Program-made: the position numbers and the translations under genes
Part shown: positions 45,307 through 52,818 of the stretch, one piece after another
Layout: every line of letters begins with the position of its first letter
How positions within the stretch are numbered: position 1 is the first letter of the stretch
The notes under the pieces: model-generated
Databases searched by the model: none
What the model was told of the DNA's origin: nothing
Seen by the model: the letters and a program-made list of their open reading frames with translations, nothing else
Assembly (NCBI RefSeq): GCF_007971385.1
Contig: NZ_CP042434.1
Span: 4,712,001-4,776,000, forward strand
DNA: 64,000 bases
Origin: Arachidicoccus ginsenosidivorans
GTDB taxonomy: Bacteria > Bacteroidota > Bacteroidia > Chitinophagales > Chitinophagaceae
Direction of reading: 5' to 3'

Positions 45307-46671
45307 CTATTGATGCCTCTCCAGAATTCTCCATTTAAGCTTGCTGGTTAAATGTTGGTCATATTTGTAGATAATCCCAAGTAGCACGACTCCTGCCAAA
45401 AGAGTAGCGCCCATTGTATAAAGGAAATATTTGGAAGGATAAAAATAACCAATTACCGCAGCTAGGACCAACATGGAAATTGTAGCAATTAAAGAGGTCG
45501 CCGTACGGATTCGTAAAAAATCAAAGTTCTTTTCCATTCTTTTGTACCGAAGATTAGAGGATAGAAAACCAATAGGTATGCCAAGCCCGCTAAAAGCCAT
45601 ATAAGCTAACGGGATTTTCGAGCTGAAGCAGTGATAACAGACGGTGATAACACTGGTGGTTATAAGCATGACTAGTACTGCCGGCAGATATAAGGAGAGA
45701 TAAACCTTAAGCTGTTTTTTGAAGGTAGGCTGAATAATCAGGTTATTTACTGCAAGCTGATAATAGAAACCCCACAGGTTCTCAAATACATAGGTGAATA
45801 ACACTAAAGGTAAAAAGCAAAAGGCCATAAAAGGAATCTTTGCAAACAAAGCGTCCAGGCCTGTAGCCCCTGTCTTTTGTCCGGATAAAAAGATGATTGC
45901 CATAAGTGTATTAATACACAAGACGCCCATCAGCATACTGGTCGCGGCATTATTGTTTCCGATGAGTATGCTACAAACGATCCGCCAATATCCTTTCTTG
46001 GGGGTAAAGCTATCGTTGGGCCGTTTTGTCGATCTGCTAAAACTGGGCTCCTGATCTTGATAAAAAAAATAAAAAGCAAAAACCAAAACAACACTTATTC
46101 CCAATAGTAAAGCCGATTGAGGCAGGTGCAGGTTCCCGGCGAACTTTAAGGCTAAATAATAGAGGACGCATAATAATGCCAATAAAGCTATATATCCTTT
46201 TTTTCGCCAGGAAATGGCATTTAACAGGTTCTCCGCAAAAAGGATTCCTGTTATCCAATACAAAAGTAGGGTTATGAGCCCGGTTAATGGAAGGGGTCCT
46301 GCTGAAAAATAGAACACCAGTACAAATAGCAGTAAGATTAGGTAGATTGTCTTAAAAAGGGCAAAAGCAAAAAGATCGATGGTCGCCTTCTGCACCCTTG
46401 AAATAGGATATTGTGGCGCTATAATTAGCTTCTTGAGGCAAAAAGAGGGGAATACCTTGTAAAATAAGGGAACAAATAAAAGGCTGTAGCATATCGCCTG
46501 CATGATAAGGGGCGCCTTATCGTGCGCTCCGTGGCTAAAAAGGTAGCCGGCAGCTCCAGCATATAAAAGTAATACCAATGCATACAAGGCATTGCCGATA
46601 AGAGATTCGGTATTATTTGACCGGAAAAATCCCTTAAATTTATTTTTCAATAAAAATACAATGATTTCCAT
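45307..46671 (-). CDS. ABC transporter permease-like membrane protein
   Basis: A 454-residue integral membrane protein with about ten to twelve hydrophobic segments (for example LYALVLLLYAGAAGYLF, TIYLILLLFVLVFYFSAG and YIALLALLCVLYYLAL). It begins 12 bases after the ATPase gene on the same strand, so it is the expected permease of that ABC exporter. Substrate unknown. The permease is intact although its ATPase gene is broken. Confidence 0.75.
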   Translation of the reverse strand: MEIIVFLLKNKFKGFFRSNNTESLIGNALYALVLLLYAGAAGYLFSHGAHDKAPLIMQAICYSLLFVPLFYKVFPSFCLKKLIIAPQYPISRVQKATIDLFAFALFKTIYLILLLFVLVFYFSAGPLPLTGLITLLLYWITGILFAENLLNAISWRKKGYIALLALLCVLYYLALKFAGNLHLPQSALLLGISVVLVFAFYFFYQDQEPSFSRSTKRPNDSFTPKKGYWRIVCSILIGNNNAATSMLMGVLCINTLMAIIFLSGQKTGATGLDALFAKIPFMAFCFLPLVLFTYVFENLWGFYYQLAVNNLIIQPTFKKQLKVYLSLYLPAVLVMLITTSVITVCYHCFSSKIPLAYMAFSGLGIPIGFLSSNLRYKRMEKNFDFLRIRTATSLIATISMLVLAAVIGYFYPSKYFLYTMGATLLAGVVLLGIIYKYDQHLTSKLKWRILERHQ

Positions 46672-46682
46672 GGGATAAAGCG

Positions 46683-47437
46683 CTAGATAATAGCATTTAA
46701 TAAGGATGCGTCCTGGTGATCAGGTTGTAAATATTTGAGGAGCTCGTTATCGATAGACGAGCTGCCATTCTCTTTGAATTGGGATAATGTCCCATTAAAG
46801 GCCAGCGCACTGTCATATAAAACGCCGATCTGAGTAGCAATTTTGTCTACATACAATAAGTCGTGTGAGGAAACGATAATGGTTCGCTCGGCAGATTTGT
46901 ATGCATTGATAAAATTGCAAAGCTTTTGGGCTGCTACAGGATCCAGATTGGCAAAAGGTTCGTCCAGAATCAGTAATCTGGGCTAGTGCAGCATCGCAGC
47001 GCAAATAGATAGCTTTTTACGCATACCACTGGAATAGCTTTTCGATTTTTTAAGTAGCTCCTCTTCATTTTCAAAAAAGTAACCTAGCAGGTTTTCTATG
47101 CGCTCCAGTGACGCTGACTTATTCATGCCGTAAAGCATCCCGATCCACTGTAAATAGTCAATTGCATTTAAATCCCCGATAATCTGATCAAATTCGCTTT
47201 GTATGCCTAGCTCCTTTTTTATAGCCAGTTCGTCCTCCTGATAATTTAAACCACCAATCCATACCTTACCCTGAGTTGGCTTACTGATATCGGCAATAAT
47301 ATTCAATAAGGTGCTTTTACCAGCGCCGTTTTTGCCGAGCAGGCAATAAATGTTGTTTTGCTCTACCCCAGGTTAATGTTATTTAAAACGATTTGTTTTC
47401 CATAGATTTTACTTAGATGTTGTAATTGTATATGCAT
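46683..47437 (-). pseudogene. ABC transporter ATPase, frameshift plus nonsense codon
   Basis: Starting MHIQLQHLSKIYGKQIVLNN, the frame is broken at the C run 47366-47369. The next frame has Walker A LLGKNGAGKSTLL and the signature YSSGMRKKLSICAAMLH. It then meets an in-frame TAG at 46985-46983, where CAG (Gln) would be expected. The same frame continues with PRLLILDEPFANLDP (Walker B) and SSHDLLYVDKIA (switch His) to 46683. Total length would be 251 residues. The nonsense codon makes this a stronger candidate for true inactivation than the other broken genes. Confidence 0.85.
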
Positions 47438-47804: not shown

Positions 47805-49297
47805 TTATAATTTCTTTTCAATGCGTATCCATACATCCGCTAAGGAACGAACACCTAAAAATTTTTTGATGCTGGCCTGGTTGGGTAATTCTTTATTGCT
47901 ATTAATTTCTTTGGTTGTGGGACGCCTGTTATATTTGAGGTATTCTTTTTTGAGTAGCATTAATAACTCCGCCTTGGTAAACCTGCCTTTAAGCATATGG
48001 ATGCGGGTATAACCACAAGCTTGCTTCAGCGCTGTAAAACTGCCAAAATGGTTAATAATTGTACGGTAACTAGGCATACCTTTTAGTTGCTTAGTTGCCT
48101 TAACAGTGGCGCCATTTGGAAAACAATACCGGTTGCTGAGCTCAATATAGCGCCTTTTCACCTCCTCTTTGGTCAGGTCCAAATTGTTTGTAAACTCCTT
48201 ATTTTTGGACATCCCCAGCCATTGTAAAAACTGATTGTAGTTACCAACAGCTGTATGAATACGGTCAGGGGTTATCTGCAGTCTTTTGCCAGCTCATCCA
48301 TGGTGGGCGATTTACCCTGTTGCTTGTAATGTTCTATTATTGCATTTATGAGCTTTTTCTTATCCACATCGCTCCATAAACCTGCTTTTTTGAGCAGATT
48401 TCTCCAACCACCAAATTGTTGATTTATATATGCAGTACTGGGCAGTTGATGCTTTTTATAAACTAATTTGTACTGCTTTTCCGTGGTAATCTTTTCTTTT
48501 TTAATAAATTGCAATAAGACTTTTAAAGCCTTGTTTTTATCTTCAGTAACGGGAGACTTAAGGGTAAAGCGGTCCAGTCCAGCGGTTTTAAGAACCGCTG
48601 TCCAGGTCTTTACCCCGAATTTTTTGTAATAAATATTTTTTGAATAGAGTCCATTAGCCTTTAAGCATTCGGATGCCTTTGGCGCCCTTTTGTGTTTTAC
48701 ATAAAAATTAAGCAAAGAATTTTTGACCTGTGCAATGGAAGGATTCAATGTTCTATTGGGCTTCAGTCCTATTTTTTTGATGACTTCCTGCCAACTAGAA
48801 ACCCCAAATGCCTTCAGGATGGTTTCGTAAGCAGGTAACCCGTTAGCAGTAGTACAATCTTTTGTTCCAGGTAATTTTCCATGCTGCTGCTCAAAATCCA
48901 GCAAAGCTTGTTTTAGATCATCCACAGAAGGTTTCCATACTTGATAAAATCCGAGTCCCACTGCTGTTAATACTTCTGCCCAGGTTTTGACCTGAAAAGT
49001 ATTTAAATAAAATACCGGTGCATAAAGCCCGTTAGCCCTGCTGCAATCCACCGTCCTGGGTGATTTGTTGTACTTAGCATAATAATCCAGTAAGGTCTTT
49101 TTTAACTGCTCTTTTGAATATTCCTTTTTTCGGGTGTACTGTAATCCGGCTGCTTTTAAAGCATTGGTCCAGTTACCAAAGTGGCGTTTAATACCGTAGA
49201 GATCCTTATGGAAATCCTCTTTAATGGGGCACCGGCCCGTCCTTTTAAAATGTTCCTGTAATGCCTCAATATATTGCTGTGCTTTATCCTGGTCCAT
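47805..49297 (-). pseudogene. Protein of about eight tandem homing-endonuclease-associated (HNH_repeat-like) repeats, one-base frameshift
   Basis: About 497 residues made almost wholly of 56-66-residue helical repeats, starting MDQDKAQQYIEALQEHF. Each unit has an amphipathic helix, a basic turn (GRCP, YNKSP, HGKLP, HKRAP, QGKSP, YNRRP), a variable middle, and a closing F-G-x-W-x-x-x-L-x-x-x-G-L (HFGNWTNALKAAGL, FGVSSWQEVIKKIGL). Units 2-4 share ANGL before the variable part. This resembles the presumed DNA-binding repeat beside HNH homing endonucleases, but no nuclease domain is present. One base is missing near 48279. Function unknown. Confidence 0.75.
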
Positions 49298-50381: not shown

Positions 50382-51625
50382 ATGAGAAGAGTCGTCATAA
50401 CCGGTCTAGGAGTACTGACCCCTATTGGTAATAACGTACCAGATTTCTGGGAGGCTTTAAAGCAAGGCAAAAGTGGTGCAGGTCTCATCACCAGATTTGA
50501 CCCCTCCAGGTTTAAAACAAAGTTTGCCTGTGAGGTTAAAAACTTTAATCCATTAGACTTTATGGATAAATCTGACGCCAGAAAATACGACGCCTTTACG
50601 CAATACGCACTCGCCACTGTCCAGCAGGCGCTAAAGCAGGCAGACGTCGATTTTGAAAAACTAGGTAGAAACAGAGTGGGCGTTATCTGGGGATCTGGCA
50701 ATGGCGGTATCACCACCTTTGAACAACAGATCACTGAATTTAATGCAGGTGACGGCACGCCCAGGTTCAGTCCATTTTTTATCCCAAAGATCATCACTGA
50801 TATTGCTGCAGGTGTCATTTCTATTAAATACGGGCTTAGAGGCGTAAACTTTGCGACCGTGTCTGCTTGCTCAACGTCCAATACGGCCATTATTGAAGCC
50901 TTTAACTACATAAAATGGGGAAAGGCAGATATGATCATTACTGGCGGTTCAGAAGCTTCTGTGTCGCAGGCTTCAGTTGGTGGATTTAATGCAGCAAGGG
51001 CGCTTTCAACCCTTAATGAGAGCCCGACTGAGGCCTCAAAGCCCTTTGACGTAAATAGAGACGGCTTTGTGATTGGGGAAGGTGCAGGTGCTATTATATT
51101 GGAAGAGCTGGAGCATGCCAAAAAAAGAAGTGCGCATATTCTGGCAGAAATTGCTGGTGGTGCAATGGCAGCCGATGCTTACCACTTGACAGGCACGCAT
51201 CCCGATGGTGAAGGCGCTATTTTGGGGATGAACTTAGCACTGCAAGACGCGGAGATTACTGAGCAGCAGATTGACTACCTGAATGCCCATGCTACTTCCA
51301 CTCAGCAAGGTGACACCAGTGAATTAAGAGCCATTGCCAGCGTATTTAGGGCCAATAGTCATTTAAATATCAGTGCGACCAAGTCCATGACAGGTCATTT
51401 ATTAGGCGCTGCAGGTGTAGTGGAGGCGATCGCTTGTATAAAGGCGATCACCGATCAGATAGTCCCACCTACCATCAACACGAAAATGGTTGATCCCGAG
51501 TTTGACGGCCGCTTTAATCTTACCTTAAAGACCGCCCAACAAAAACGGTGAACTATGCCATGAATAACACCTTTGGGTTTGGGGGCCACATTGCTACCAG
51601 CATCTTCAAACGCTTTGATGGATAA
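50382..51625 (+). pseudogene. fabF: Beta-ketoacyl-ACP synthase II, one-base frameshift
   Basis: FabF-type condensing enzymes extend acyl-ACP with malonyl-ACP. The catalytic Cys is in TVSACSTSNTAI and the catalytic His residues are in NAHATSTQQGD and KSMTGHLLGAAG. The frame is lost at the A run 51541-51545. One more A gives KTVNYAMNNTFGFGGHIATSIF and a normal 414-residue length. It is downstream of a TetR gene, which is unusual for the housekeeping copy, so it may serve a regulated lipid or polyketide-like pathway; a second fabF elsewhere would support this. Confidence 0.88.
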
Positions 51626-52077: not shown

Positions 52078-52818
52078 TTACCCCTTCGGTTTATCAGGCT
52101 TCACAGACTCCTCCAATGAAGACGCCTCCACCTGTTTGGGTTTACCCTCCGACTGAGTACCGCAGCCGGACATTATTTTTAAGCCTTCGGCTAATATATT
52201 TTTAGCGGCATTAATATCCCGATCATGATGTGCTCCACAAGACTGGCAGGTCCACGACCTGTCAGCCAGGGTCAGATCCTGCTTAATCCAGCCACAGCCA
52301 GAGCAGGTCTTACTGGATGGATAGAACCGGTCTATTTCAATATAGACCCGGTCATGCCATGCACATTTATATTTTAGTTCTGTACGAATCCTACCTAAGG
52401 AAACGTCCGCCAGGGATTTAGCCAGATTATGATTTTTGATCAGATTTGCAACAGCAAGATCTTCTGCACACAGTATATCATGGTTCTTGACAATCTCTGT
52501 AGTTATTTTGCTGATAAAATCCTTTCTCATATTGGCTATCCGCTCATGAAGCAACGCCACCTTTTTTCTTTGGCGTTGCCTGGAATTACTTCCTTTTTGC
52601 TTCTTTGCAAGCTGTCTTTGTTCATAGGCAAGCTTTTTCTCAAGTGATTTAAATGCTTTAATATTTTTGTATATGGTCCCATCTGATAAGATAACCGCCT
52701 CTTTTATGCCCAAATCAATTCCAGCCTGTTTACCGGTCTTCTCAAATGTTTTTTTTGTACCTGCTACAGTAAGAGATACATAATATTTATCCGTAGGTGT
52801 TCGTGAACAATCCTTCAA
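52078..52818 (-). pseudogene. tnpB: TnpB-family (IS200/IS605 OrfB-like) RNA-guided nuclease, 5'-truncated
   Basis: The 246 residues cover only the C-terminal two thirds of a normal TnpB (about 370-400). RuvC catalytic residues are present: Asp in AGIDLGIKEAV, Glu in CAEDLAVANLI, and Asp in HHDRDINAAKNIL. A zinc ribbon lies between (CSGCG and CQSCG). The N-terminal region is missing; upstream the frame reads KTIRV but is broken by stops near 52825. No tnpA lies nearby. TnpB uses a guide RNA encoded at its 3' end; this copy is probably inactive. Confidence 0.88.

Follow-up and report, generated by a model that had tools for sequence, protein, structure and literature searches.

What could a protein do that is built from eight copies of one module and from nothing else? 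This question is raised by a gene in a 64,000-nucleotide stretch of the Arachidicoccus ginsenosidivorans genome (contig NZ_CP042434.1, positions 4,712,001 to 4,776,000; here, the window), in which a sequence-only reading had proposed an array of homing-endonuclease-type repeats without a nuclease, running on the minus strand from 49297 down to 47805. Our analysis places the gene at the same positions and on the same strand, assigns the repeats to the family PF18780 (HNH_repeat), and finds no nuclease. We infer that the array is probably a noncatalytic, sequence-selective DNA-binding protein of eight PF18780 units that arose from the part of HNH or restriction enzymes that confers specificity.

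The span of 1493 bases means that the array is not a single frame, and its units are divided between two overlapping frames. In a Pfam scan with a cut-off of 26 bits, PF18780 was found in both, at 123 bits in five stretches of the first frame and at 30.6 bits in two stretches of the second (E = 4.4e-7 on the 135 amino acids that follow the first ATG of that frame, 48212 to 47808). The family had been correctly anticipated as HNH_repeat-like from the letters of the sequence. No other Pfam family, the HNH families included, passed its own cut-off in either frame, and by eye no HNH motif was seen downstream in the three minus-strand frames of 47800 to 46601. With PF18780 alone present, the array frames also contain none of the nuclease, SF2 ATPase, and target-recognition domains of SauUSI-type enzymes; TIGR04096 reached 19.9 of 150 bits, far under its cut-off. 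The protein is basic, with a net charge of +31 in the 341 amino acids of the first frame. The gene would encode, or may have encoded until recently, a protein of PF18780 units and no other domain.

A unit hidden Markov model (HMM), built from units of several arrays and covering about 53 profile columns per unit plus linkers, recognized units 1 to 5 and the first half of unit 6 in the first frame, and units 7, 8, and the rest of unit 6 in the second. The remainder of unit 6 was recognized weakly (-0.7 bits). The model thereby recovers the eight units first proposed, with the frame change inside unit 6. The ANGL motif is common to units 2, 3, and 4. Each member of this trio finds its best partner within the trio, above all 377 units from elsewhere. 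For units 1, 5, 7, and 8, the best partner within the array is outscored by 202, 131, 41, and 10 outside units, respectively (unit 6 left out).

We modeled units 2 to 4 with AlphaFold2, using a 63-row alignment of which 60 rows came from other loci. The mean predicted local distance difference test score (pLDDT) was 84.4 and the predicted template modeling score (pTM) was 0.45, as would be expected for well-predicted units whose relative placement is uncertain. An identical helix pattern recurs three times: it starts with a long helix 1, continues through a short helix 2, a turn and helix 3, and closes with helix 4, which carries F-G-x-W...L-x-x-x-G-L. In this model, each unit looks like a four-helix module of the helix-turn-helix type. 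Among 769 Foldseek-ranked chains realigned with VIA-align, the best match was to residues 616-669 of the restriction enzyme SauUSI (54 residues, 1.9 Å), at a Z score of 7.2 that lies under the tool's safe level for helical folds (about 13) and may mean only a common arrangement; the next entry scored 4.7. A sequence comparison points to the same place. The G354 protein, which matches SauUSI over its full length (765 bits), carries PF18780 at residues 619-662 below the 26-bit cut-off (20.0 bits), as does the SauUSI-like G272 protein at 619-664 (18.1 bits), and the G354 segment aligns to the part of SauUSI matched by structure. SauUSI was not listed at E <= 10 when the unit profile was compared with PDB sequences. 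Structure and sequence, each below its own safe threshold, agree in suggesting that the SauUSI subdomain 616-669 is an HNH_repeat unit.

The structural rows at Z scores of 3.3 to 4.7 include many TetR-family regulators, some in entries with DNA (SimR, MtrR, QacR, and TetR), interspersed with a ribosomal protein and members of the DsrC family. The DsrC family also gave a weak Pfam match (17.6 bits, cut-off 24.9) and was kept as a lead; in the accessible part of an earlier modeling paper, which tabulates PF18780 among repeat families modeled without a known structure, the top template was a chain of the DsrC kind, 2xsj_C (PMC8078820). A search of solved structures by sequence returned none for the 341-amino-acid frame. 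For a related array from Bacillus subtilis, described below, the same search gave two hits, one to a de novo design (E = 0.0002) and the other at E = 0.15, both of which we took as chance or composition, and the 13 hits of the unit profile, led by centrin (E = 0.059), were taken as chance.

We then asked where the units differ. Helix-turn-helix folds usually touch DNA around the starts of helices 2 and 3; these two helices and the turn between them correspond to profile columns 20-40. Within the window array, columns at or just before those helix starts show more variation than the remaining exposed columns (mean 0.96 versus 0.72, one-sided p = 0.0008), and the same column set, which was chosen after seeing B. 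subtilis variability and thus is neither blind nor corrected for multiple tests, gives p < 0.05 in 7 of 12 arrays, the other 5 being not significant. The most variable columns, averaged over the 12 arrays, are 34, 24, 23, 27, 20, 35, 38, and 39, all of them in 20-40. The variation that the sequence-only reading expected after ANGL does occur there, within this most variable zone. It is also in columns 20-40 that nonsynonymous divergence peaks, in 10 of 10 arrays; 8 of 10 arrays have a positive net charge, and in 8 of 10 this segment carries more positive charge than any other. Most likely, each unit would lie on DNA with its helices 2 and 3, and the array may hold on to a long site by many contacts that are individually weak and differ from one another.

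Arrays of this kind are found elsewhere. Two pattern scans yielded at least 240 loci, and among the matches listed there were 166 open reading frames (ORFs) with at least one unit (141 + 25), the 141 being the set scanned with Pfam for partner domains. Among those with three or more units (40 + 5), 13 of 45 have no other stretch of more than 60 amino acids, although 4 of these 13 run up to the end of a locus and could be truncated. Homologs do not, then, all end in a nuclease domain, the pattern that the sequence-only reading would have taken to mean truncation. An uncultured bacterium (locus L064) has neighboring genes of 11 and 8 units without a nuclease, and nuclease-free arrays of three to five units occur in haloarchaea and Bacillales, including four units in Halorubrum (L103) and five in Peribacillus (L088). 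The same reading had ranked the gene first in the window as a candidate for an undescribed system. That description is not supported: Pfam already has a curated family for the module, both bacteria and archaea have further proteins of this architecture, and no sign of a multigene system was seen here.

The longest arrays found are on plasmids of B. subtilis, where alleles of 17, 15, and 14 units, all open, occupy a single site beside genes for an integrase and a helix-turn-helix protein (L056, L299, L300). The 14-unit allele has a second gene of 6 units alongside. When matched units of the 17- and 14-unit alleles were compared, 15 of 98 cells differed in columns 20, 23, 24, 29, 30, 36, and 38, the seven most variable columns inside the 17-unit array; between units within that array, the same columns differ in 75-92% of pairs. 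The low difference between matched units against the high difference within the array indicates that individual units retain their own letters even as entire units are gained and lost. By eye, remnants that resemble units lie just before the array. No candidate target site was found in the noncoding DNA of the alleles. Extra Pfam rows for this array, in which no stretch passed alone, were set aside.

Several multiunit loci have further features of their own. At L064 (401-4114, minus strand), two unit types largely alternate by eye, hinting at a two-unit period. A viral contig (L263, 1849-4660) has two neighboring ORFs of 469 and 459 amino acids with five called units each; the intervals of 154 and 91 residues in which no unit was called may hide missed units, and both were excluded from the count of pure arrays. 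Two other viral contigs (L181 and L237) have three ORFs each, with two or three units and a C-terminal part of about 155-350 amino acids. In gp35 of Geobacillus virus E3 (L305, 4998-6536), six called units precede a C-terminal part that presumably resembles a nuclease of the PD-(D/E)XK or VSR type.

The array itself has no close relative in the genomes that we searched. The 341-amino-acid protein found itself alone in its own genome and 58 relatives, and again in a 395-genome sample of the phylum that includes its own genome, and it had no match in peptide scans of genome contigs and viral contigs or in the phage records; these protein searches are insensitive, since G354 carries PF18780 by profile and yet does not match the protein. 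Among 72,556 plasmid records, 29 match the array protein, with the best place under 60% identity in every one. For arrays of this kind more generally, hits in phages are few, at 3 of 50,697 records from two phages. The B. subtilis array protein found nothing in the viral-contig peptide scan. Counting the array genome in each case, PF18780 occurs in 13 of 394 genomes of the same family and in 17 of 395 genomes of a class-level sample. The array genome is one contig of 5.77 Mb, and PF18780 there comprises the array and one unit in a helicase of 905 amino acids (L055, 7141-9855, minus strand, near C1:3048025). In another genome of the family (L321), the part that follows the unit is very similar to that of this helicase.

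In other genomes of the same family, 10 ORFs have two or more units; 7 match an HNH regular expression, an eighth has an HNH ending by eye, L319 (three units) stops about where the HNH would start, and L327 has a different ending. The regular expression is insensitive (it missed L322), and the partner tally was therefore taken from Pfam; among the 141 unit-bearing ORFs scanned, it finds HNH in 45 of the 104 from genomes and in 5 of the 37 viral ones. HNH nucleases, helicases (SauUSI-like and others), a serine recombinase, and a DNA methyltransferase are among the partners recognized by reading; these domains act on DNA, which we count in favor of DNA binding by the units. In G188 and G232, the arrays stand nearly alone.

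What remains is to weigh DNA binding against the alternatives. The array could be what is left of a homing or restriction nuclease that has lost its HNH domain, a functionless product of a decaying gene. Such losses do happen, given that most of the 10 multiunit ORFs of the family end in HNH and L319 stops about there, and the array gene has a frame change, sits beside other broken frames, and had no ortholog that could be found in the 58 relatives or the phylum sample. However, eight units are present here versus two or three in the HNH-ended ORFs of the family, no HNH trace was seen downstream by eye, and 13 of the 45 ORFs with three or more units are pure arrays (4 of them at a locus end), with the B. 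subtilis alleles open at 14, 15, and 17 units; on balance, we consider a remnant rather unlikely. The frame change might alternatively be programmed, such that the cell would produce a short form of 341 amino acids plus a long form. The second frame does carry on with unit 6, and there is a short A run near the junction. Against this, no homolog with such a shift came up, no search having been aimed at one, and two neighbors are broken as well. One is a gene for an ABC transporter ATPase (by eye), on the same strand as the array, which has an in-frame stop and a frame change; the other is fabF, which terminates early, the C-terminal part lying in another frame, and which has an open frame of 393 amino acids from stop to stop versus 414, 421, and 420 in three genomes of the same genus. 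Three broken genes within about 5 kb argue for assembly error or local decay over a programmed event, which we regard as very improbable. The frame change in the array probably reflects an error in the assembly or recent decay and has no place in the mechanism.

The units might also be protein-protein or mechanical modules, similar to a coupler, that make no contact with DNA. Single units do sit within helicase proteins, and the most basic part of the window array lies outside the helix 2-3 segment. A protein consisting of couplers alone would have nothing to couple, however, and the concentration of variation around the starts of helices 2 and 3, the rank of columns 20-40 as the most positive segment in 8 of 10 arrays, and the presence of long arrays on plasmids and of multiunit proteins in phages all speak against it; we think it unlikely that the units are of this kind. 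A number of observations nevertheless weigh against sequence-selective DNA binding, in addition to the sub-threshold Z score, the post hoc choice of columns, and the five arrays without significance. In the accessible part of its description, the matching SauUSI subdomain is assigned to a coupler, and no DNA contact is described there (PDB 7clg). The structure check suggested by the sequence-only reading gives a divided answer, in that the units are well predicted, the solenoid is unproven, and helix 1 of the window array is more positive (+2.33 per unit) than columns 20-40 (+1.17). A single-sequence model of the 341-amino-acid frame was poor (pLDDT 66.2, pTM 0.26), Foldseek with the model of units 2 to 4 gave no hit at E <= 0.001, and comparing the units by profile with the TetR protein encoded in the window yielded no match (probability 0.13%). 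The two arrays from haloarchaea have a negative net charge, with columns 20-40 at 0.0 and -0.71. Across all arrays and segments, the ratio pN/pS stays below 1 (pS 0.41-0.86), giving no support for positive selection. No target site was found for the array, and no functional study or DNA-binding experiment on a PF18780 unit was found in the literature searched, subscription literature being largely beyond reach.

On the reading that we favor, a sequence-selective DNA-binding protein, the array would have a role without catalysis, for example, as a repressor or a roadblock, or by competing with a related nuclease for its site. The array would probably descend from a specificity module of HNH or restriction enzymes by loss of the nuclease and gain of units.

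Promoter and terminator scans around the gene gave chance-level counts, and a promoter pattern of the Bacteroidota type had 10 matches in the window versus 3.9 expected, none of them upstream of the array gene on its own strand. No empty insertion site could be read; the neighborhoods in three genomes of the same genus keep the TetR gene and fabF and differ upstream. A permease-like ORF adjoins the broken ABC ATPase gene, and the window also has a gene for a TnpB-like protein. Positions of the two frames, the eight units, and neighboring genes are collected in Table 1.

TABLE 1 Window positions of the two array frames, the eight units, and genes in the neighborhood
Feature	Position	Strand	Remarks
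First frame	48275..49297	-	341 aa from the ATG at 49297; complete units 1-5, then first half of unit 6; PF18780 E = 6.3e-36
Second frame	47805..48293	-	Open from 48293 down to its stop at 47805; rest of unit 6, then units 7-8
Unit 1	49139..49285	-	Short-turn type; best outside match a B. subtilis plasmid unit, 48%
Unit 2	48953..49120	-	ANGL type; unit HMM
Unit 3	48764..48931	-	ANGL type; unit HMM
Unit 4	48575..48736	-	ANGL type; unit HMM
Unit 5	48377..48547	-	Unit HMM
Unit 6	48222..48367	-	Divided between both frames; second half weak (-0.7 bits)
Unit 7	47994..48179	-	Unit HMM
Unit 8	47814..47981	-	Without closing AGL; unit HMM
Permease-like ORF	45307-46671		No Pfam hit
ABC transporter ATPase (by eye)	about 46800-47400	-	In-frame stop and frame change
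fabF	50382-51551	+	Ends early
TnpB / OrfB_IS605-like protein	52078-52818	-	246 aa; Cas12f1-like TNB domain

How does the array compare with what has been described? PF18780 is named for its HNH partners, whereas the eight units here have no partner domain, and HNH nucleases with two or three N-terminal units, the commonest form among the 10 ORFs of the family, have fewer units and an HNH that is missing here. The closest parallels in architecture are the arrays of B. subtilis (WP_104843671.1 and its alleles) and of L064, which are likewise long and made of the same unit type without another domain; the B. subtilis arrays share 25-27% identity with the window protein, and their units are far more alike among themselves. 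TALE-like repeats have about 33-35 residues and a two-residue code, and the array units, with about 53 profile columns plus linkers and four helices, are not of that type. The idea of modular repeats with variable residues is nonetheless shared with TALE, STAR, and pTERF, which are TALE-like and mTERF-like (PMC11417379); in the main text of that systematic screen of DNA-binding repeats, the words HNH and homing are absent. The first subdomain of the SauUSI coupler (PDB 7clg, about 616-669) has the same four-helix arrangement, but as a single unit in a large restriction enzyme.

As a tentative extension, HNH_repeat arrays in bacteria, archaea, plasmids, and phages might be natural modular DNA readers, made of self-contained helix-turn-helix units of about 55 residues in which residues around helices 2 and 3 would set the reading and whose specificity may evolve by gain, loss, and swap of units. 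If the units do read DNA singly, they would provide a further modular design beside zinc fingers and TAL effectors, and natural arrays of up to 17 units, together with alleles that differ by whole units, make such a code testable. Even if they do not, the link to SauUSI offers a likely structural template for PF18780 and a hint at the role of this module in HNH nucleases, helicases, and recombinases.
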